From a virus: a stretch of 24,790 nt of DNA. This document shows positions 1 to 12,699 of this stretch, piece after piece. Location: IMG/VR virus record IMGVR_UViG_3300043640_000134, positions 1-24,790 of that record. One strand, written 5' to 3'. The notes beneath the pieces were generated by a model. That model was not told where the DNA came from and made no database searches. It worked only from the letters and a program-made list of their open reading frames with translations. Positions within the stretch are counted from its first letter, which is position 1. Each line of letters starts with the position of its first letter. Position numbers and translations under genes: made by a program.

Positions 1-327
1 CTCCTCGACACGATCTCCGCCACCATCGCCGGCATCTACGCCGACCGCACCGGCACCGCCGCCGACCAGTGGCGGGCCAGCATGTCCGTCGAAACCTGGT
101 ACGACGCCGCTGAAGCCGTCGAAGCGGGCCTGGCCACCGAGATGGCCACCCCGCGCCGGCGCGATGAGCCGGCCGCGACGTTCGACCTGACCGTGTTCCA
201 GTTCGCCGGCCGCGCCAAGGCGCCCGCCCCCAACACCCCCGATGCCGGCGCCGATGCCGACGTCACCGATCCCGATACCACCGCCATCAGCTCGGCGCTG
301 TCGGCACTGAAGGGAGCTTTCCAGTGA
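1..327 (+). CDS. Prohead protease, ClpP-type (3' end only)
   Basis: The frame is open from the first base and ends in TGA at 325-327, so only about 108 C-terminal residues are present. They contain the segment YADRTG..ADQWRASM followed by ETWYDAAEAVEAGLATE. This helical 'T.YtA.EAve.GLADe' signature is typical of the C-terminal part of S14 (ClpP-like) proteases. Phages with HK97-type heads use these to mature the prohead by cleaving the scaffold and the capsid N-terminus. The catalytic Ser and His would lie upstream of the window. The last 50 residues are Ala/Pro/Asp-rich and look disordered, as is common at the tail of such proteases. The stop overlaps the next start by 4 bases (GTGA), which fits coupling to the capsid gene. 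Function is inferred from the motif and from adjacency to the capsid gene. Confidence 0.8.
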   Translation, partial: LLDTISATIAGIYADRTGTAADQWRASMSVETWYDAAEAVEAGLATEMATPRRRDEPAATFDLTVFQFAGRAKAPAPNTPDAGADADVTDPDTTAISSALSALKGAFQ

Positions 328-1670
328 CCACTACGGCCACTCCGAAGAGCGCCTCCGAGCTGGAGGAGATGCTCAGCGACGGCACCGTCGCGCAGATGTT
401 CGAGGGCGGCAAGCCCTCGGATGACTTCGGCAAGTTCATCAAGGACTACGCCCAGGCGGTGCAGGGCGAGAAGACCGAGCTTGCCGCGCAGATCCGCGAG
501 GAGACGCAGCGTGTCCTCGTCGAGTACCTGCGTGAGAACGAGGTCGAGAACGTCAAGCGCGTCAACCTCGACCCGCAGCAGGCCAAGCCCGCTCCGAAGG
601 CCGGCCTGAACTCCCGCACCGCACCGGGTGCGAAGATCGATGACCTGGTCGCTTCGCACGAGGACTTTCTGCGCGGCATCTGGCACCGCAACCAGACCGC
701 TGAGGCGACCACGCTGCAGGACAAGTTCCGCGACGTCCGCAACTCCTTCGGCTCGACGGTCCCCGCCGACGGCGGGTTCCTCATCCCGGAGACGCTGCGA
801 TCGAACCTGCTGCAGGTCGCTCTCGAAGAGGCAGTGGTGCGCCCCCGCGCCACCGTCATCCCCATGGAGACCCTGCGGGTGCCGTTCCCGACCCTGGACT
901 CGACCACGAACTCCGGGTCCGTCTACGGCGGCATGATCGGCTACTGGACCGAAGAGGCCGGCGCGCTCACCCAGTCCCAGGCCACCTTCGGGCGGATCGC
1001 CCTGGAGGCTAAGAAGCTCACCGGGTACAGCGAGGTCCCCAACGAGCTGTTCCAGGACAGCATCGTGTCCTTCTCCGCGTTCCTGAACACTGTGTGGCCG
1101 CGCGCCATCGCGTTCTTCGAGGACGTCGCGTTCATGTCCGGCACCGGTGTCGGTGAGCCGCTCGGCTGGCTCGGCGCTTCGGCTGCGGTCTCCGTCGCGA
1201 AGGAGTCCGGGCAGGCCAACGGCACGATCGTGTGGGAGAACATCGTCAAGATGTACGCCCGCATGCTCCCCGCGAGCCTGGGCAACGCGGTGTGGATCGC
1301 GAACCTCGACACCTTCCCCGAGCTCGCCACCATGGCCCTGTCGGTCGGTACCGGTGGTGCGCCGATCTGGATCAACAACGGCGCCGAAGGCCCGCCCATG
1401 ACCATCCTCGGCCGCCCGGTCATCTTCACCGAGAAGGCCCCGAGTCTCGGTGGCGCCGGCGACATCAACCTCGTCGACCTGTCGTACTACCTGATCGGCG
1501 ACCGGCAGGCCATGTCGATGGACACGTCCCCGCACTACAAGTTCGCCAACGACATGACCGCGGTCCGCATCATCGAGCGCGTCGATGGCCGCCCGTGGCT
1601 GCAGTCGGCGATCACCCCGCAGACCGGCTCGAACACGCTCACGCCGTTCGTGAAGATCGCGGCCCGATAA
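324..1670 (+). CDS. Phage major capsid protein, HK97 fold
   Basis: This 448-residue protein starts at GTG 324, overlapping the protease stop. Residues 1 to about 115 are charged and helical, as in the delta/scaffold domain found in HK97-type capsid precursors. From about residue 150 the sequence is typical of HK97 capsids: a FGSTVPADGGFLIPE entry segment, then E-loop-like and P-domain strands, with KKLTGYSEVPNELFQDS and FFEDVAFMSGTGVGEPLG being highly characteristic. It assembles into the icosahedral shell after the upstream protease removes the N-terminal domain. The exact cleavage site cannot be seen from sequence alone. Length and gene order (protease then capsid) fit siphovirus-type prophages of actinobacteria. 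Confidence 0.95.
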   Translation: MTTTATPKSASELEEMLSDGTVAQMFEGGKPSDDFGKFIKDYAQAVQGEKTELAAQIREETQRVLVEYLRENEVENVKRVNLDPQQAKPAPKAGLNSRTAPGAKIDDLVASHEDFLRGIWHRNQTAEATTLQDKFRDVRNSFGSTVPADGGFLIPETLRSNLLQVALEEAVVRPRATVIPMETLRVPFPTLDSTTNSGSVYGGMIGYWTEEAGALTQSQATFGRIALEAKKLTGYSEVPNELFQDSIVSFSAFLNTVWPRAIAFFEDVAFMSGTGVGEPLGWLGASAAVSVAKESGQANGTIVWENIVKMYARMLPASLGNAVWIANLDTFPELATMALSVGTGGAPIWINNGAEGPPMTILGRPVIFTEKAPSLGGAGDINLVDLSYYLIGDRQAMSMDTSPHYKFANDMTAVRIIERVDGRPWLQSAITPQTGSNTLTPFVKIAAR

Positions 1671-2666: not shown

Positions 2667-3029
2667 ATGACGACCTGGACATGCCGGGGGTGCACCGCAG
2701 CGTTCGCTGTGGGCCTCCCGGCGTGCCCGGGGTGTGGCAGCACGGATTACGAGGAGACAGGAATGCCGAAGATCACCGTCGTCGGTGGGCCCAGTTACGC
2801 CGACGGCAACCCGAACGAGGAGGTGGCGTCATCTCCTGGCAGCAACTCACAGACATCACCCGAGAACTCGTCGACGAAGCCCGAGCCGAGCGAGCAGAGC
2901 CGCCCACAGCGTGCCCGAACGACGGGGAACCGCTCGAAGAAGGACCGGACGGGCAGCTCTTCTGCCGGTTCGACGGATGGCGGTCAGACGGCTGCCAACG
3001 AGCAGGCTGACGGCCAGAAGGCGGAATGA
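2667..3029 (+). CDS. Zinc-ribbon N-terminus plus conserved 'PKITVVGGPS' segment
   Basis: The frame gives 120 residues from ATG 2667, one base after the previous stop. Residues 4-24 hold CRGC and CPGC, two CxxC pairs that make a small zinc ribbon. They are followed by MPKITVVGGPSYADGNP, a segment I recognise as recurring in actinophage proteins at this position (from memory, not a search). After about residue 53 the sequence turns into a low-complexity Ser/Pro/Thr/Gln tail. A different reading frame over the same bases encodes a conserved-looking protein, so it is unclear whether this tail is a real, constrained product. The first half is well supported and the C-terminal half is doubtful. Function is unknown. 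Confidence 0.6.
   Translation: MTTWTCRGCTAAFAVGLPACPGCGSTDYEETGMPKITVVGGPSYADGNPNEEVASSPGSNSQTSPENSSTKPEPSEQSRPQRARTTGNRSKKDRTGSSSAGSTDGGQTAANEQADGQKAE
2831..3010 (+). CDS. Nested ORF with CPNDGEPL...CRFDGW motif, no canonical start
   Basis: This frame lies inside the zinc-ribbon gene, offset by one base. Its stop is at 3008-3010. From about 2831 it reads ISWQQLTDITRELVDEARAE, then ACPNDGEPL, GPDG and FCRFDGW. That is a signature I know from a small actinophage protein usually encoded separately right after the zinc-ribbon gene. The strong ribosome site GAGGAGG (2817-2823) is correctly spaced for ATC at 2831 (7 bases) or GTC at 2828 (4 bases). Neither is a normal start, and a normal GTG at 2828 would differ by a single base. 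Options are a rare ATC start, a -1 frameshift from the upstream frame, or a start-codon mutation or sequence error. The product would be about 59 residues of unknown function with a pair of cysteines. Confidence 0.55.
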   Translation: MSWQQLTDITRELVDEARAERAEPPTACPNDGEPLEEGPDGQLFCRFDGWRSDGCQRAG

Positions 3030-3032
3030 CAG

Positions 3033-4127
3033 GTGGCGATCAGCAGGCCCTGCTACGCGAGTAGGGAGGACGTCATGCGGGCTCTGGACTACAAGGAGAC
3101 CTCCCGGTCACACGGGCAGGTCGACCGCGCCTTGGAGTCGGCATCCGATGACGTCGAGGGCCTGACTCATCGCCGCTTCTATCCGCAGGTCGCGACCCGC
3201 TCGTTCGACTGGCCAGACTTGAACCGTTCAAGGTCATGGCGGCTATGGCTCGGCGCGAACGAACTCGTCTCCGTCGCCACGCTGACCTCCGGCGGCGTGG
3301 TCATCCCGCCGTCAGCGTACTTCGCGCGGCGGAGCGACAACCTTGAAGAGCCCCCGTACACCCACATCGAGATCAGCCTGGACAGCAGCGCCACCTTCGG
3401 TGGAGGCGTCACGACCCAGCGGGACATCTCGGTGGCCGGCGTGTTCGGCTACACCGCGGCCGAGCGTACGGCCGGCGCGCTCGCGGGGGCGCTCAACTCC
3501 AGCCAGGCCACCGTTGACGTCACCGATTCCGCGGCGATCGGCGTCGGTCACCTGATCCGCGTCGAGACGGAGCGGATGCTCGTCACCGACCGGGGCATGC
3601 TCGACACCGGCCAGAACCTCGCCGGGAACCTCACAGCGTCCATGGCCGAGGTCACTGTGCCCGTCGCCAACGGCACCGCGTACGGCATCGACGAGGTCAT
3701 CCTCATCGACGCTGAGCGGATGCTCATCGTTGACATCGCCGGCAACAACCTGATCGTCAAGCGCCAGTGGGACGGCAGCACGCTGGCCGCGCACACGACC
3801 GGCGCCGACGTCTACGCGTCCAGGCGCCTCACCGTCGAGCGGGCCGCGCAGGGCACCACAGCGGCCTCACACGGCAGCGGCACGGCGATCGCACGCCACA
3901 CACCACCCGGCCTCATCCGGGACCTGTGCGTGGCTGAGGCGCTCGACCAGATGCTGCAGGAGCCCGCCGGGTACGCACGCGCCGGGTCCGTGCAAGACAA
4001 CTCCCACAACTCGATCAGCGTGTCGAACATCCGCTCATCGAAGTACCAGCTTGGCCTCGGCATCGACGGGCTGCGCGATCGGGCCTATGCCGCGTTCGGC
4101 CGCAAAGCCAGGATCGGAGCCGTGTGA
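3033..4127 (+). CDS. Head-tail connector (adaptor) protein
   Basis: This 364-residue protein starts at GTG 3033. The N-terminal about 70 residues (REDVMRALDY, then a helix ending ASDDVEGLTHRRFYP) match the beginning of gp6/gp15-like head-tail adaptors that dock below the portal. Residues 150-290 contain two copies of a beta module, recognisable by VGHLIRVETERMLVTDRG and IDEVILIDAERMLIVDIAG. The C-terminus (PPGLIRDLCVAEALDQML to YAAFGRKARIGAV) returns to the helical adaptor body. The protein is longer than simple adaptors because of this beta insertion, which I recall as common in actinophage relatives. Its stop overlaps the next ATG by one base. Confidence 0.75.
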   Translation: MAISRPCYASREDVMRALDYKETSRSHGQVDRALESASDDVEGLTHRRFYPQVATRSFDWPDLNRSRSWRLWLGANELVSVATLTSGGVVIPPSAYFARRSDNLEEPPYTHIEISLDSSATFGGGVTTQRDISVAGVFGYTAAERTAGALAGALNSSQATVDVTDSAAIGVGHLIRVETERMLVTDRGMLDTGQNLAGNLTASMAEVTVPVANGTAYGIDEVILIDAERMLIVDIAGNNLIVKRQWDGSTLAAHTTGADVYASRRLTVERAAQGTTAASHGSGTAIARHTPPGLIRDLCVAEALDQMLQEPAGYARAGSVQDNSHNSISVSNIRSSKYQLGLGIDGLRDRAYAAFGRKARIGAV

Positions 4128-7137: not shown

Positions 7138-9310
7138 AGTCGAGATCATTGTCACGTCGAAGGACCGCACCGACTTCGCCGCGATCGGCGCGAAGGCCCG
7201 CACCGCCCTGCACGAGTCCGTCAAAGACGGCCTCGACGACGTCGAGAAGACCACCACGGAACGGTTCAAGGAGATCGGCGACCACTCCGGCGAGGAGATG
7301 GTCAAGTCGTTCGACCCGCACCTGACGAAGTGGGGCGACGGCCTCGACGAAGAACTCGACGTCAAGGTCAAGGAGAAGTTCCGGGTAGTCGGCGAGCACG
7401 GTGGCGAGTCCATGGCTGCCGGCCTGCGCGGCAGCCTCTCCAAGTTCAAGAGCATCGGAGGCGACGCCGGGTCGAGCACCGCGACCTCGTTCGGGAAGTC
7501 GCTGGGTGACGCCGCCGGCGTGATCAAGGGCGCGTGGATCCCGATGCTGATCGCCGCGCTGCTCCCCGAGCTCCCGGCGATCGGCGCGCTGGCTGCGACC
7601 GCGCTGGTCTTCGCGTTCGGCGCCGGCCTCGCCGGGCTGGGCCTGGTCGCCGCATGGCATCTGAAGTCGGTCCAGAAGGAGTTCGGCCAGTTCAAGAAGT
7701 TCCTCAGCGGCTTCATGAAGGACATTGGGAAGCCGTTCGAGGAAACCTGGGCGAACATCTTCAACGTTGCGGGCAACGGCCTGAAGAAGCTCCAGCCGAT
7801 CCTCAAGGGCGTATTCAAGGACTTCGTCGCGCCGGCCGTCACCAGCTTTGTGACCAAGCTGGGCGAAGCTTTCTCCAAGCTCGCGCCCGCCATCCGCCCG
7901 GTCGCCAAGGCGTTCTCGCTGCTACTCGGATCCATCGGCAAGGGCCTGCCGGGGATCTTCAAGGGGATCGCCGATGCCCTTTCCGGCATGGCCGGCACGA
8001 TCTCCAAAAACCCTGACCTGTTCGCCGGATTCATCACCGGGATGTTGAAGGTCGTCGAGGGCGGCCTGAAGGTGATCGACTTCTTGGCGAAGCTGTTCGG
8101 CAAGTTCGCGGACTTCCTGCACACGAAGAACCCGTTCGAGGCCATGGCCGCGGCACTATCCCCGGTCCTGGCGATCCTGATGCACCTGGGCAAGGCCGGT
8201 GATGTCTTCCGCGCCATCGGCGATGCGGCGAAGACGATCGGCCCGCACATCCAGAACATGTTCGACAAGATCAAGGAGAAGGCCGGGCCGATCCTCGACA
8301 AGATCGGCAAGCAGGTCAAGGACGAGCTGGTTCCGGCGTTCGTCGACTTCATGAAGGCCGTGGCCCCGTTGGCGGGGAAGCTCGCGGACATCTTCACCCC
8401 GACCGTGGTGTCGGCGATCACCGACATCCTCGATGCCCTGTCCGGGCTGGTCGATGTCCTGTCCGGCGGTCTGGAGATCGCCTCAGGCTTGTTCTCCGGC
8501 AACTGGGGGCGGATGTGGGACGGCATCAAGGACGTCGCGAAGGGTGGCGCGAAGGAGGCCAAGGCGGCCCTTGAGTCGATCCTGAACATCACGACGTTCG
8601 GTCACGGCGACAAGGTCATCAAGTTCACGCTCAAGGCGATCGACCTGGCCAGCAGCGCCATTCACCGGGTCGCGTCCGCCGCGAGGGGGATCAAGAACAA
8701 GACGGTGAAGCTGGCCCAGTCGGGTGCCGCCGCCGTGGTCAGTGCGGTCAGCCGGGTCGTTGCGATCATCCGCCGGTTCGTTGGGAAGAGGGTCGGGATC
8801 CATCAGGCCGGCGCCGAGGCTGCGCTGCATGCGGTGGAGCGGGTGATCAGTGCGATCAAGCGGTTCGTCGGTAAGGCCGTCAAGGTGCGCGCGAGCGTGT
8901 TCGGTCTCGGCGGGGTGCTGAGCTTGATCGGCGCGATCTCGCGGGTGGTCTCCAAGACGGTGAGTATCGGTGCGAGGATCTTCGGGCTCGCGACGGGCGG
9001 GATCGTCGGCGGTCAGGGGATGGCCACGGGTGGCGTCGTCGGTCACGCGGCGGAGGGTGGTCCGCGTTCGAACCTGACGTTGGTGGGTGAGCGGGGCGCG
9101 GAGTTGGTGAACCTGCCGAGGGGCAGCCGGGTGATTCCGCACGGCCAGTCGATGCAGCAGCTCGCCGGGCTGGGCGGCGGTGGCGGTGGGGCGTCGGTGA
9201 TTGAGATCCATTCGGGTGGGTCGCGGCTGGATGACCTGCTGCTGGAGGTTCTCCGTAACTCGATCCGGGTGAAGGGCGGCAACGTCCAGGTCGTCCTCGG
9301 GAGGAAGTGA
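7127..9310 (+). CDS. Tape measure protein
   Basis: This 727-residue protein starts at TTG 7127, preceded by GGGGGAGG about 9 bases upstream and reading SNEVEIIVTSKDRTDFAAIG. It has long helical stretches, a hydrophobic segment at about residues 137-180 that may insert into membrane during DNA entry, and a repetitive helical region at about 525-630. The C-terminus carries the usual GERGAELVNLPRGSRVIPHG motif after Gly-rich ATGG repeats. Tape measures set tail length. By the usual rule of about 1.5 Angstrom per residue the tail would be roughly 110 nm (inference). The stop overlaps the next ATG by one base. No lysozyme or peptidase domain is visible. Confidence 0.92.
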   Translation: MSNEVEIIVTSKDRTDFAAIGAKARTALHESVKDGLDDVEKTTTERFKEIGDHSGEEMVKSFDPHLTKWGDGLDEELDVKVKEKFRVVGEHGGESMAAGLRGSLSKFKSIGGDAGSSTATSFGKSLGDAAGVIKGAWIPMLIAALLPELPAIGALAATALVFAFGAGLAGLGLVAAWHLKSVQKEFGQFKKFLSGFMKDIGKPFEETWANIFNVAGNGLKKLQPILKGVFKDFVAPAVTSFVTKLGEAFSKLAPAIRPVAKAFSLLLGSIGKGLPGIFKGIADALSGMAGTISKNPDLFAGFITGMLKVVEGGLKVIDFLAKLFGKFADFLHTKNPFEAMAAALSPVLAILMHLGKAGDVFRAIGDAAKTIGPHIQNMFDKIKEKAGPILDKIGKQVKDELVPAFVDFMKAVAPLAGKLADIFTPTVVSAITDILDALSGLVDVLSGGLEIASGLFSGNWGRMWDGIKDVAKGGAKEAKAALESILNITTFGHGDKVIKFTLKAIDLASSAIHRVASAARGIKNKTVKLAQSGAAAVVSAVSRVVAIIRRFVGKRVGIHQAGAEAALHAVERVISAIKRFVGKAVKVRASVFGLGGVLSLIGAISRVVSKTVSIGARIFGLATGGIVGGQGMATGGVVGHAAEGGPRSNLTLVGERGAELVNLPRGSRVIPHGQSMQQLAGLGGGGGGASVIEIHSGGSRLDDLLLEVLRNSIRVKGGNVQVVLGRK

Positions 9311-12300
9311 TGCCGAGCTTCCCGCAGATCCCCCGGGACATTACCGTTGAGATGGACATCGGCGGTACATGGACGGACGTCACGTCGCAGGCGTACGGGC
9401 GGGATCCGTTGACGATCTCGCGTGGCCGCTCCGATGAGGCGAGTCAGGTTGATCCGTCGCGGTTGACGATGACGCTGAACAACCGCAGCGGCCGATTCTC
9501 CCCGCGTAACCCGTCGGGGGCGTACTACGGGCTGATCGGGCGTAACACGCCCGTACGGGTCTCGACAACGCGCGTGCCGGGCAAGTTTCTGGAGTTGGCC
9601 GGCGTCAACGGAGACATGGCCTCAGCCCCCGACGTGACCGCCTTGGGCATCACCGGTGACATCGACGTCCGCATCGACCTGACGGCCTCCTGCTGGACCA
9701 GCCGCGACCTCTGCGGGAAGTACCTGACCGCCACAAACCAGCGATCCTGGGCGGTCCAGACCAACGGTGACGGAACGCTGGTATTTCGATGGTCGACGGA
9801 CGGGACCGCCGCCAACGCCACCACCGTGACCTCGACGCTTCCGATGCCGATCTACCCTGGCCGCCGCGCGGTGCGGGTCACGCTCGACGTCAACAACGGC
9901 GCATCCGGCAGCACGGTGACGTTCTACACCTCCGACACGATCTCAGGGTCGTGGACGCAGCTCGGTGCCCCCGTGGTCACGTCGGGTATCACCAGCGTCT
10001 TCGACAGCACGTCACCTGTTGAGGTCGGCGACAACACGGGTCTCACCGCTTCCGCCGATGGCACCCGCTCGGTCGCGGTCGCTGGGCAGGTCCACGCGTT
10101 CCAGCTCCGCAACGGCATCGCCGGGACCGTGGTCGCCAACCCCGACTTCACCGCGCAGGCCGTCGGCGCGACTTCGTTCGCCGACACCGCCAGCTCGCCG
10201 AACACGTGGACACTCCAGGGCAGCGCCTACCTGACGAACCGCAGGTGGCGCTTCCACGGCGAGATGGCGACCCTGCCGTCACGCTGGGACATCTCCGGCC
10301 GGGACGTCTACGTCCCTGCTGAGGCGGCAGGGATCACCCGGCGGATCGGCGCGGCCGGGACGCCACTGCGGTCGGCCCTGTACCGGGGCATCCTGACCGA
10401 AGCCGGGGTGGTGAGCTACTGGCCGTGCGAGGACGGCTCCGATTCGAAGCTGATCGCCTCGGGTCTGCCGAACGGCCGGCCGATGACACCCTCGGCCCCG
10501 CCCTCGTTTGGCGGCTCCGGCGTCTTCGAGGCGTCCGATTCCCTGCCGACCGTGTCGAACACGAGCTGGGCGGGGCCGGTCGCGGTCTACACCCCGACCA
10601 GCACCGCGCAGGTCCGGTTCCTGCTGTCCATCCCGACCAGCGGGACGACGAACAACGCCATCATCATGCGCATTCTCACGACCGGCACGGCGGCACGGTG
10701 GGACCTCATCTATTTCACGGCGTCCAGCGGATCGATCGGTCTCAACGTCTACGACTCGGACGGGAACCTACTCAAGGCGAACACCGGATCGGGCCCGTTC
10801 AACGGCGCCAACGTCCGGGTGTCGTTCGAGCTCACCCAAAGCGGCGGCAACATCACGGTCGGCGTGCAGCGCACGGCGCCCGGCGCTAGCAGCGCATCCG
10901 GGTTCACCGACTCGGTCACGAGCCGTACGTTCTCCCGCATCAAGACCATCATCGTCGACCCGACCAACAACGTCGACGACGTGGCCATTGGCCACATCTC
11001 CGTGCACTCCCAGATCACCAACATCTTCGATCTTCAAAGCGAACTTGAGGGCTGGCCGGGCGAGACCGCCGGACGCCGCGTCGAACGCCTGTGCTCCGAG
11101 GAGGGCATCACCTTCCGGGGCATCGGGGACCTTGACGACTCCACCGCCATGGGCGTGCAGCGTCCCGGCGCCCTGCTGGACCTGTTGCGCGAGTGCGAGG
11201 ACGCCGACCTCGGCACCCTGTTCGAGCCGCGCGAGATTCTCGGCATCGGTTACCGCACCCGCACCAGCCTCTACAACCAGGACCCGGCCGTCGCCATCGA
11301 CTACGCGGCGCATGAACTGTCCGACGCCCTCAACCCCGTCGACGACGACCAGGCCATCCACAACAGCGTCACCGTGTCCCGGACCGGCGGCGGCTCCGCC
11401 CGCGTCGACATCGCCGACGGCCCCCTGTCCACCCAGGCCCCACCCGACGGCGTCGGCACCTACTCCGACCAGCCCTCCGTCAGCCTCGTCGACGACGAAC
11501 AGTGCGCCTACCAGGCATCGTGGCGCGCCCACCTCGGCACCGTCGACGAAGCCCGGTATCCGCAGCTTCCGGTGGCGTACCACTCCAACGAACTCGTCGC
11601 CAACCCCACCCTCGTCCGCCAACTCCTCGAATCCGAGGTCGGCGACCGGGTCACCGTCACACACCCCCCGAGCTGGCTCCCGCCCGACCAGATCAGCCAG
11701 CTCATCCAGGGCACCAGCGAGACGTTCACCAACTTCCTGCACGACGCGACCCTGAACTGTTCCCCGGCGTCCCCGTACGAGATCGCCGTGTACGGCACCG
11801 ACCGCTACGACACGGCCGGCTCACAGCTGTCATCCTCGGCGACCAGCAGCGCCACATCCCTGTCCGTCGCCACGACCCTCGGCCCCCTGTGGACGACCGA
11901 CCCGGCGGAGCTGCCATTCGACCTCGCTGTCGGCGGCGAGCAGGTCCGCGTCATCAACACCTCCACACGCATCACCGATACGTTCACCCGCTCCGCCTCC
12001 TCCAGCTGGGGGACGGCGGACACCGGCCAGTCTTGGGCCACCTCCGGCGGCAGTGCGGCGAACTACAGCGTGACCGGTTCGGCCGGCCGCGTGTCGTGCA
12101 CGGACGTCACCACCCGCCGGTTCACGGCGATCGGGTCGGCGATCACCGACGCCGCCGTCATCGTCTCTGCGACCACACCCGTCACTGCCGCGACCGACAC
12201 CATCACGGCCGGGATCGTGCTGCGCTACACCGACGACAACAACACCTACCTCGCGCAGGTCAGCTTCAACCCGTCCGGCACCGTCACCCTCGAAGTCTTC

Positions 12301-12699
12301 AAACGCGTCGCCGGGACGTTCACGTCCCTCGGATCACAGGTCGACGTCACCCGCTACACACCCGGTGTCGCCGTACGGATCCGGGCGGCGTGCGTGGGGT
12401 CGCAGATCAGCGCCCGCGTGTGGACCGCCGGCACACCCGAACCGGCCTGGCAGGTCACAGCCAGCGATGCGGCGTTCTCCTCCGGGAAGGTCGGCACGAA
12501 GACCAGTCTCGGCGCCGGGAACACGAACACGCTGCCGGTCGCCGTCGACTACGACGACTTCGACATGCTCACCCCGGCCATCTCGGGGGCCTCCAGCCCG
12601 CAGACGTTCACGGTGACGAGAAGCGTGAACGGCCTGGTCAAAGCCCACTCATCCGGGGATGACGTGCGCCTGTACTCGCCGACGTACCGGGAGCTGTGA
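9310..12699 (+). CDS. Large minor tail protein with three LamG-like insertions
   Basis: I chose ATG 9310 (1,129 residues), which overlaps the tape measure stop; GTG 9307 is also in frame. The first about 90 residues (VEMDIGGTWTDVTSQAYGRD, then LTMTLNNRSGRFSPRNP) are the start of a distal-tail-type protein. The core resumes at about residue 580 (GWPGETAGRRVERLCSEEGI). Three concanavalin/LamG-like beta-sandwiches appear inserted at about 95-330, 365-570 (opening VVSYWPCEDGS) and 890-1090 (opening DTFTRSASSSWG, closing YDDFDML). The C-terminus FTVTRSVNGLVKAHSSGDDV is the standard ending. The insertions are likely carbohydrate- or host-binding. The protein should sit at the tail tip as baseplate hub and adhesin. 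Confidence 0.88.
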   Translation: MPSFPQIPRDITVEMDIGGTWTDVTSQAYGRDPLTISRGRSDEASQVDPSRLTMTLNNRSGRFSPRNPSGAYYGLIGRNTPVRVSTTRVPGKFLELAGVNGDMASAPDVTALGITGDIDVRIDLTASCWTSRDLCGKYLTATNQRSWAVQTNGDGTLVFRWSTDGTAANATTVTSTLPMPIYPGRRAVRVTLDVNNGASGSTVTFYTSDTISGSWTQLGAPVVTSGITSVFDSTSPVEVGDNTGLTASADGTRSVAVAGQVHAFQLRNGIAGTVVANPDFTAQAVGATSFADTASSPNTWTLQGSAYLTNRRWRFHGEMATLPSRWDISGRDVYVPAEAAGITRRIGAAGTPLRSALYRGILTEAGVVSYWPCEDGSDSKLIASGLPNGRPMTPSAPPSFGGSGVFEASDSLPTVSNTSWAGPVAVYTPTSTAQVRFLLSIPTSGTTNNAIIMRILTTGTAARWDLIYFTASSGSIGLNVYDSDGNLLKANTGSGPFNGANVRVSFELTQSGGNITVGVQRTAPGASSASGFTDSVTSRTFSRIKTIIVDPTNNVDDVAIGHISVHSQITNIFDLQSELEGWPGETAGRRVERLCSEEGITFRGIGDLDDSTAMGVQRPGALLDLLRECEDADLGTLFEPREILGIGYRTRTSLYNQDPAVAIDYAAHELSDALNPVDDDQAIHNSVTVSRTGGGSARVDIADGPLSTQAPPDGVGTYSDQPSVSLVDDEQCAYQASWRAHLGTVDEARYPQLPVAYHSNELVANPTLVRQLLESEVGDRVTVTHPPSWLPPDQISQLIQGTSETFTNFLHDATLNCSPASPYEIAVYGTDRYDTAGSQLSSSATSSATSLSVATTLGPLWTTDPAELPFDLAVGGEQVRVINTSTRITDTFTRSASSSWGTADTGQSWATSGGSAANYSVTGSAGRVSCTDVTTRRFTAIGSAITDAAVIVSATTPVTAATDTITAGIVLRYTDDNNTYLAQVSFNPSGTVTLEVFKRVAGTFTSLGSQVDVTRYTPGVAVRIRAACVGSQISARVWTAGTPEPAWQVTASDAAFSSGKVGTKTSLGAGNTNTLPVAVDYDDFDMLTPAISGASSPQTFTVTRSVNGLVKAHSSGDDVRLYSPTYREL

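Follow-up and report, generated by a model that had tools for sequence, protein, structure and literature searches.

A conserved actinophage gene nested out of frame in a zinc-ribbon gene, with AUC as its predicted start codon

Introduction

How can a conserved reading frame inside another gene be expressed when it has a strong Shine-Dalgarno (SD) sequence and no normal start codon? The question is raised by a viral sequence of IMG/VR (IMGVR_UViG_3300043640_000134), of which we analysed positions 1 to 24,790 (hereafter the window, 24,790 nucleotides). A preliminary description had noticed a conserved open reading frame nested out of frame in a zinc-ribbon gene, with GAGGAGG at 2817-2823 followed by GTC (2828) and ATC (2831). 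Its three proposals were an ATC codon used as start, a -1 shift stimulated by the SD, and mutation of a GTG start. Direct reading of the window and comparison with relatives bear out the nested frame, and the motif, the two codons and the lack of a normal start are all as described. From the sequences we consider it highly probable that the nested frame is a real gene, internally initiated at AUC 2831 from this SD, and that both frames are under selection. The conservation, the codon signature of dual coding, the strength of the SD and their co-occurrence are direct observations; initiation at the AUC itself, and a low or IF3-sensitive yield, are what we infer from them.

Results and Discussion

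Organisation of the locus

The features of the region are the following:

324..1670, + strand: HK97-type major capsid protein, upstream context (PF05065, E 2.6e-54)
2667..3029, + strand: outer gene (zinc-ribbon gene), from the list of open reading frames; relatives share the layout
2763..2765, + strand: possible second start of the outer gene, a conserved in-frame ATG (MPKITVxGG) with GAGGAG ahead
2818..2825, + strand: Shine-Dalgarno sequence AGGAGGTG, GGAGG core 7 nt from the ATC, best duplex energy -10.6 kcal/mol
2831..2833, + strand: predicted AUC (ATC) start of the nested gene; of 101 clusters of relatives, 81 have the same ATC and the others only ATG (10) or GTG (10)
2831..3010, + strand: nested gene for a protein of about 59 aa, lying within the outer gene's 3' half
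3033..4127, + strand: downstream neighbour, head-tail adaptor (phrog_442, E 1.2e-08)

The outer gene encodes an N-terminal zinc ribbon (CxxC..CPxCG), a linker and a Ser/Thr/Pro/Lys-rich C-terminal tail that lies over the nested gene. The nested frame occupies positions 2 mod 3, which makes it the -1 frame with respect to the outer gene, and ends with TGA at 3008-3010. From 2831 to this stop, direct reading of the window finds no ATG, GTG, TTG or CTG codon. Since 55 codons upstream of the ATC are also open in the window, the N-terminus of its nested protein rests on the comparison with relatives.

The MPK/MAK motif of the possible second outer start is present in 75 of the 81 loci with ATC, and an SD-like 4-mer precedes it in 70 of these 75. 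In some relatives, L057 and L078 among them, the outer frame opens only shortly 5' of the MPK ATG, so that zinc ribbon and MPK protein may be two separate products or alternative ones.

Relatives of the nested gene

Relatives of the nested peptide ISWQQLTDITRELVDEARAERAEPPTACPNDGEPLEEGPDGQLFCRFDGW number in the hundreds, with 407 loci in IMG/VR and 34 in bacterial genomes. The IMG/VR search was made in steps, the nested peptide giving 14 loci and an alignment then giving 407, of which the best 80 were taken. An extra search with a query made from ATG/GTG-started members gave 80 more loci, some at places already found. Clustering at 90% nucleotide identity left 101 representatives, which we treat as distinct relatives; they derive from the best 80 matches per search, and their proportions therefore differ from those of the whole family. 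The clusters with ATC include 19 distinct sequences from named bacterial genome assemblies, and the head-tail adaptor gene was found in 96 of the 101 representatives.

The other searches returned little. The region had no blastn match among annotated phages, the outer protein found nothing when used as an IMG/VR query, and the nested peptide, compared by tblastn with phages and plasmids, matched only Streptomyces phage Dagobah. The preliminary description was right to regard the nested product as a separate conserved actinophage protein, although no family model of Pfam, PHROGs or NCBIfam matched it significantly.

The start codon is ATC, ATG or GTG

The start codon was ATC in 81 clusters, ATG in 10 and GTG in 10 (n=101). 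Alignment on a conserved Trp places ATC at the start in 78 clusters, to which we added L053, L123 and L156, where an N-terminal extension shifts the Trp downstream while the ATC keeps its position relative to the SD. L015 probably behaves in the same way, its ATC following the SD rather than the conserved Trp. The extensions of these four nested genes are 2-9 codons long. Leu codons, GTC and ATT are absent from the homologous start position in all 101 clusters. When the codon is a Val codon it is always GTG and never GTC, though GTC is the commoner of the two (P about 3e-5, given phage usage). The homologue alignment suggested in the preliminary description does reveal relatives with GTG or ATG here, but most of them are cases without an overlap of the two genes. 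A conserved near-cognate codon therefore occupies the position of the relatives' canonical start, at a workable distance from the SD.

The codon ahead of the ATC is variable (GTC, GCC, CGT, CCG, GAC, GGA and others), and its residue is not conserved. In 45 of the 81 ATC loci there is an in-frame stop 1-2 codons upstream of the ATC, so that only AUC initiation, or a frameshift within these 1-2 codons, can express the nested frame there. No ATG, GTG or TTG follows the ATC in 76 of the 81 clusters, and in 62 of those the stretch from the in-frame stop upstream to the ATC also lacks them. Gene callers limited to ATG, GTG and TTG cannot find the nested gene, because there are no such codons for them to use. 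Dozens of actinobacterial phages share the arrangement, which escapes standard gene finders, and similar genes may be overlooked elsewhere by callers restricted to these three codons.

The extended SD is conserved across the ATC group. The median SD duplex energy is -10.4 kcal/mol in the ATC loci, against -5.7 kcal/mol in the ATG/GTG relatives and -3.3 kcal/mol for control ATC triplets.

Both frames appear to be translated

Over the same bases, mean pairwise identity is 63% for the nested frame and 52% for the outer frame, and codon differences of a single base are synonymous in 58% of cases for the former vs 17% for the latter. The CPNDG/C..DGW motif is nearly invariant among the nested proteins.

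The codons of the nested frame carry the mark of a second frame. Upstream of the outer stop, none of the 4,436 nested codons of the ATC loci is NTG, vs 6,095 of 73,005 codons (8.3%) in other genes of these phages. Nested Leu codons in the ATC loci are 96% CTC and 2% CTG, compared with 48% and 45% in the other genes of the same phages and 48% and 39% in the ATG/GTG relatives. For Leu and Val together, NTG vs NTC gives Fisher P values of about 2e-98 (against other genes) and 6e-22 (against ATG/GTG relatives), which are indicative only, owing to shared ancestry. Other codons are shifted too between nested and other genes: Arg CGA (51% vs 8%), Glu GAA (52% vs 18%) and Ala GCC (74% vs 48%). The NTG codons are missing because they would place TGN (Cys, Trp or stop) in the outer frame. 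Avoidance of NTG for the nested gene's own sake, for instance to prevent internal starts, is at odds with the return of NTG once the outer frame ends: in six loci with an early outer stop (L033, L055, L163, L164, L172, L183), the first CTG falls at the stop position and the remaining NTG codons come after it.

The outer frame is open through the nested gene in 70 of 78 loci, where codon usage would lead one to expect 52.7 (sd 3.6), and in most loci it stays open to +7..+19 nt beyond the nested stop. In the overlap, the outer tails of the ATC group contain no Cys, Trp or Tyr, and consist of 25% Ser and 14% Thr. The shared bases thus bear signs of protein-level selection on both frames, which look translated and kept by selection. 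Judging from the nested codon choice and the openness of the outer frame, the outer tail is under selection as a sequence rich in Ser, Thr, Pro and Lys and devoid of Cys and Trp.

The phase of the overlap accounts for the missing normal start

For this overlap phase, Sabath et al. 2008 (PMC2542354) state that every start codon is formed from a TGN codon (Cys, Trp, stop), and they give this requirement as the reason for the rarity of such overlaps. In our loci, an ATG, GTG or TTG start is missing because the outer frame excludes TGN; an ATC start instead puts TCN (Ser) in the outer frame. All 77 ATC loci with an identified upstream gene have an overlap of more than 90 nt, and for 75 loci the overlap was called in this phase. 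In contrast, at 13 of the 20 ATG/GTG loci the end of the upstream gene falls between -6 and +4 nt of the start, five of these 13 having a 4-nt GTGA overlap, and several ATG/GTG relatives have a SAP-like tail on the upstream gene (motif identified by eye) instead of the overlap. The two arrangements can be a single base apart: in ATGAGC and ATCAGC, the one base that differs decides whether upstream stop and canonical start both exist or neither does. Some loci keep the overlap with a normal start: L076 and L111 have GTG (outer Trp) and L014 has ATG (outer Cys), and none of these has an internal NTG. Overlap thus strongly disfavours a normal start but does not ban it absolutely. A benefit of weak or regulated initiation may also contribute to the use of ATC. 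The family offers a deeply conserved example from nature of a start codon dictated by what an overlap costs genetically, and it makes testable the compositional rule that a start in this phase needs TGN in the other frame.

Some relatives depart from the general layout. In L087 (3001-3183) the nested gene has an ATG (outer TGG) inside an open outer frame that runs 109 nt further and has at its end a helical domain similar to tails seen in other upstream genes. The nested gene of L092 (1508-1684) overlaps the upstream zinc-ribbon gene by 92 nt in the other phase and has an ordinary ATG, which makes it a natural control for the phase rule. In L115 (Streptomyces sp. SW4) the upstream zinc-ribbon frame seems broken with the ATC arrangement retained, possibly by an assembly frameshift or in a decayed prophage.

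These observations suggest how the arrangement may have come about and may work. In sibling phages the two genes are adjacent, and the ATG or GTG start of the downstream one frequently falls in a 4-nt overlap (GTGA or ATGA). The upstream gene of the ATC lineages continues across the nested gene, in the other frame. Exclusion of Cys, Trp and stop from the outer tail disfavours the three normal starts and would lead to the use of ATC, with a TCN (Ser) codon in the outer frame, and the strong SD inside the zinc-ribbon coding region would drive internal initiation at AUC 2831. The tree of the nested protein is built on too few columns to count how often the start type switched. In the tree of the head-tail adaptor, well-supported branches force at least six changes of start type, which means that the start type switched repeatedly or that the genes were exchanged by recombination. 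Any direction of change between start states would have to be inferred, and the head-tail adaptor tree establishes none of them as ancestral.

Alternative explanations

The same bases could be read in other ways. SD-like sequences can stimulate -1 frameshifting, and a -1 shift from the outer frame leads into the nested one, so the product might be a fusion of zinc ribbon and nested protein, made by programmed frameshifting near 2817-2831 with the SD as stimulator and the Ile as an internal residue. ATC is moreover the usual Ile codon of these phages (96%). A slippery motif is a mandatory component of bacterial -1 frameshifting, with Z_ZZN as its shortest form (PMC4066793). Among the 45 loci with a stop 1-2 codons upstream, four have G_GGG within the allowed interval but 41 have no Z_ZZN tetramer. 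Nor did we find a downstream stimulatory structure in pseudoknot-free folding: from +6 to +96 of the ATC loci, the RNA has less structure than its codon-shuffled versions (mean z +0.86). An internal Ile would also hardly be replaced only by ATG and GTG, as this one is, including in relatives with separate genes, nor would the codons ahead of it be expected to lack conserved residues. The upstream stops without a slippery motif make AUC initiation far better supported, and the SD-stimulated shift proposed earlier is very unlikely. Initiation might occur instead at another nearby near-cognate codon, such as GTC 2828, or at more than one neighbouring codon. GTC is the codon before the ATC in the window and in roughly one third of the clusters, and Streptomyces sigR has a proven GTC start behind a ribosome-binding site identical to that of the window, AGGAGGTG (PMC5472188). 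Yet the codon at the position of 2828 is GCC, CGT, GAC, GGA and others elsewhere, whereas the ATC is invariant and aligns with ATG or GTG. Of the two codons named earlier, the ATC thus stands and the GTC, not being conserved, does not; to a start at such a neighbouring codon we give a very small probability.

Two further readings would deprive the ATC of a role altogether. GTG at 2828 would be an ordinary start, and a mutation or sequencing error at 2828-2835 might have removed it from the window; the census refutes this, with the identical ATC in 81 clusters, including the 19 sequences from named bacterial assemblies, and the mutated GTG start can be excluded almost with certainty. The nested frame might also be a relic in phages with ATC, where the outer frame alone would be translated; the lack of a canonical start and a low-complexity outer frame that is open past the nested stop in most loci would fit this. 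But it is the nested frame that is the more constrained, in identity, in synonymous differences and in its nearly invariant motif, which leaves a relic next to no credibility. We therefore retain internal initiation at AUC 2831.

Similarity to infC, sigR and other systems

AUC is ordinarily a poor start codon, repressed by IF3, so the yield of the nested gene may be low. In Escherichia coli, infC starts with AUU, and its odd start serves the autoregulation of IF3. infC is not known to have an overlap of the kind seen here. In three bacterial loci, the host infC starts are GGAGGATCC-ATC-AGC (L203), GGAGGCCCC-ATC-AGC (L200) and GGAGGTCCC-ATC-AGC (L204), with ATC AGC directly 3' of GGAGG; in L204 there is an in-frame TGA upstream and no canonical start codon in between. 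This agrees with the ATC start reported for Streptomyces infC (PMC5472188). The nested phage gene resembles infC in its AUC AGC start after a strong SD, but infC is chromosomal whereas the phage start sits within another phage gene. It resembles Streptomyces sigR, which is repressed by IF3, in a conserved non-canonical start compensated by AGGAGGTG (PMC5472188). The differences are that the sigR codon is GTC, that sigR is not nested, and that its regulation was shown experimentally. By analogy with infC and sigR, the nested gene may be IF3-sensitive. It is conceivable, if rather doubtful, that this actinophage family solved the phase-2 start problem via AUC with an infC-like site that is held down by host IF3, its output reporting the status of IF3 or the ribosome during infection.

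Phage T4 gene 26 has an AUU-initiated internal product in the same frame as the longer protein. It is also a near-cognate internal phage start, useful as a lead, but differs in its frame and in using AUU, not AUC. Compared with other phase-2 same-strand overlaps, the nested gene escapes the TGN limit by a non-NTG start, a way out that goes unmentioned in the discussion of this phase by Sabath et al. (PMC2542354). A literature search for AUC-started overlapping phage genes found none among the papers covered. Conserved near-cognate starts are very few in bacteria, and the locus supplies one from a phage. The product of Dagobah HUN42_00015 (MT711977) is a distant homologue of the nested protein at the same genome position, but its gene is annotated and separate, with an ATGA overlap and an ordinary ATG.

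The nested protein

An AlphaFold2 model of the nested protein (mean pLDDT 84.8) has a helix at 3-22 and then short strands, i.e., an N-terminal helix followed by the CPNDG...C..DGW module. Instead of the two CxxC-type metal knuckles of a zinc ribbon, nearly all members have CPxD and CxxD, which makes the protein a degenerate, zinc-ribbon-like one at most; the divergent member L015 has CPKCG. A fold search against the PDB gave no match at E <= 0.001, with weak zinc-ribbon-like matches only. From the position between the capsid and head-tail adaptor genes, our guess is a minor role in the head or its assembly.

A search of the window for tRNA genes, with a phage tRNA decoding AUC at initiation in mind, found none. 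Elsewhere in the window, 9307-12699 encodes a large protein matching phrog_5313 (unknown function, E 7e-242), part of which matches a phosphodiesterase family.
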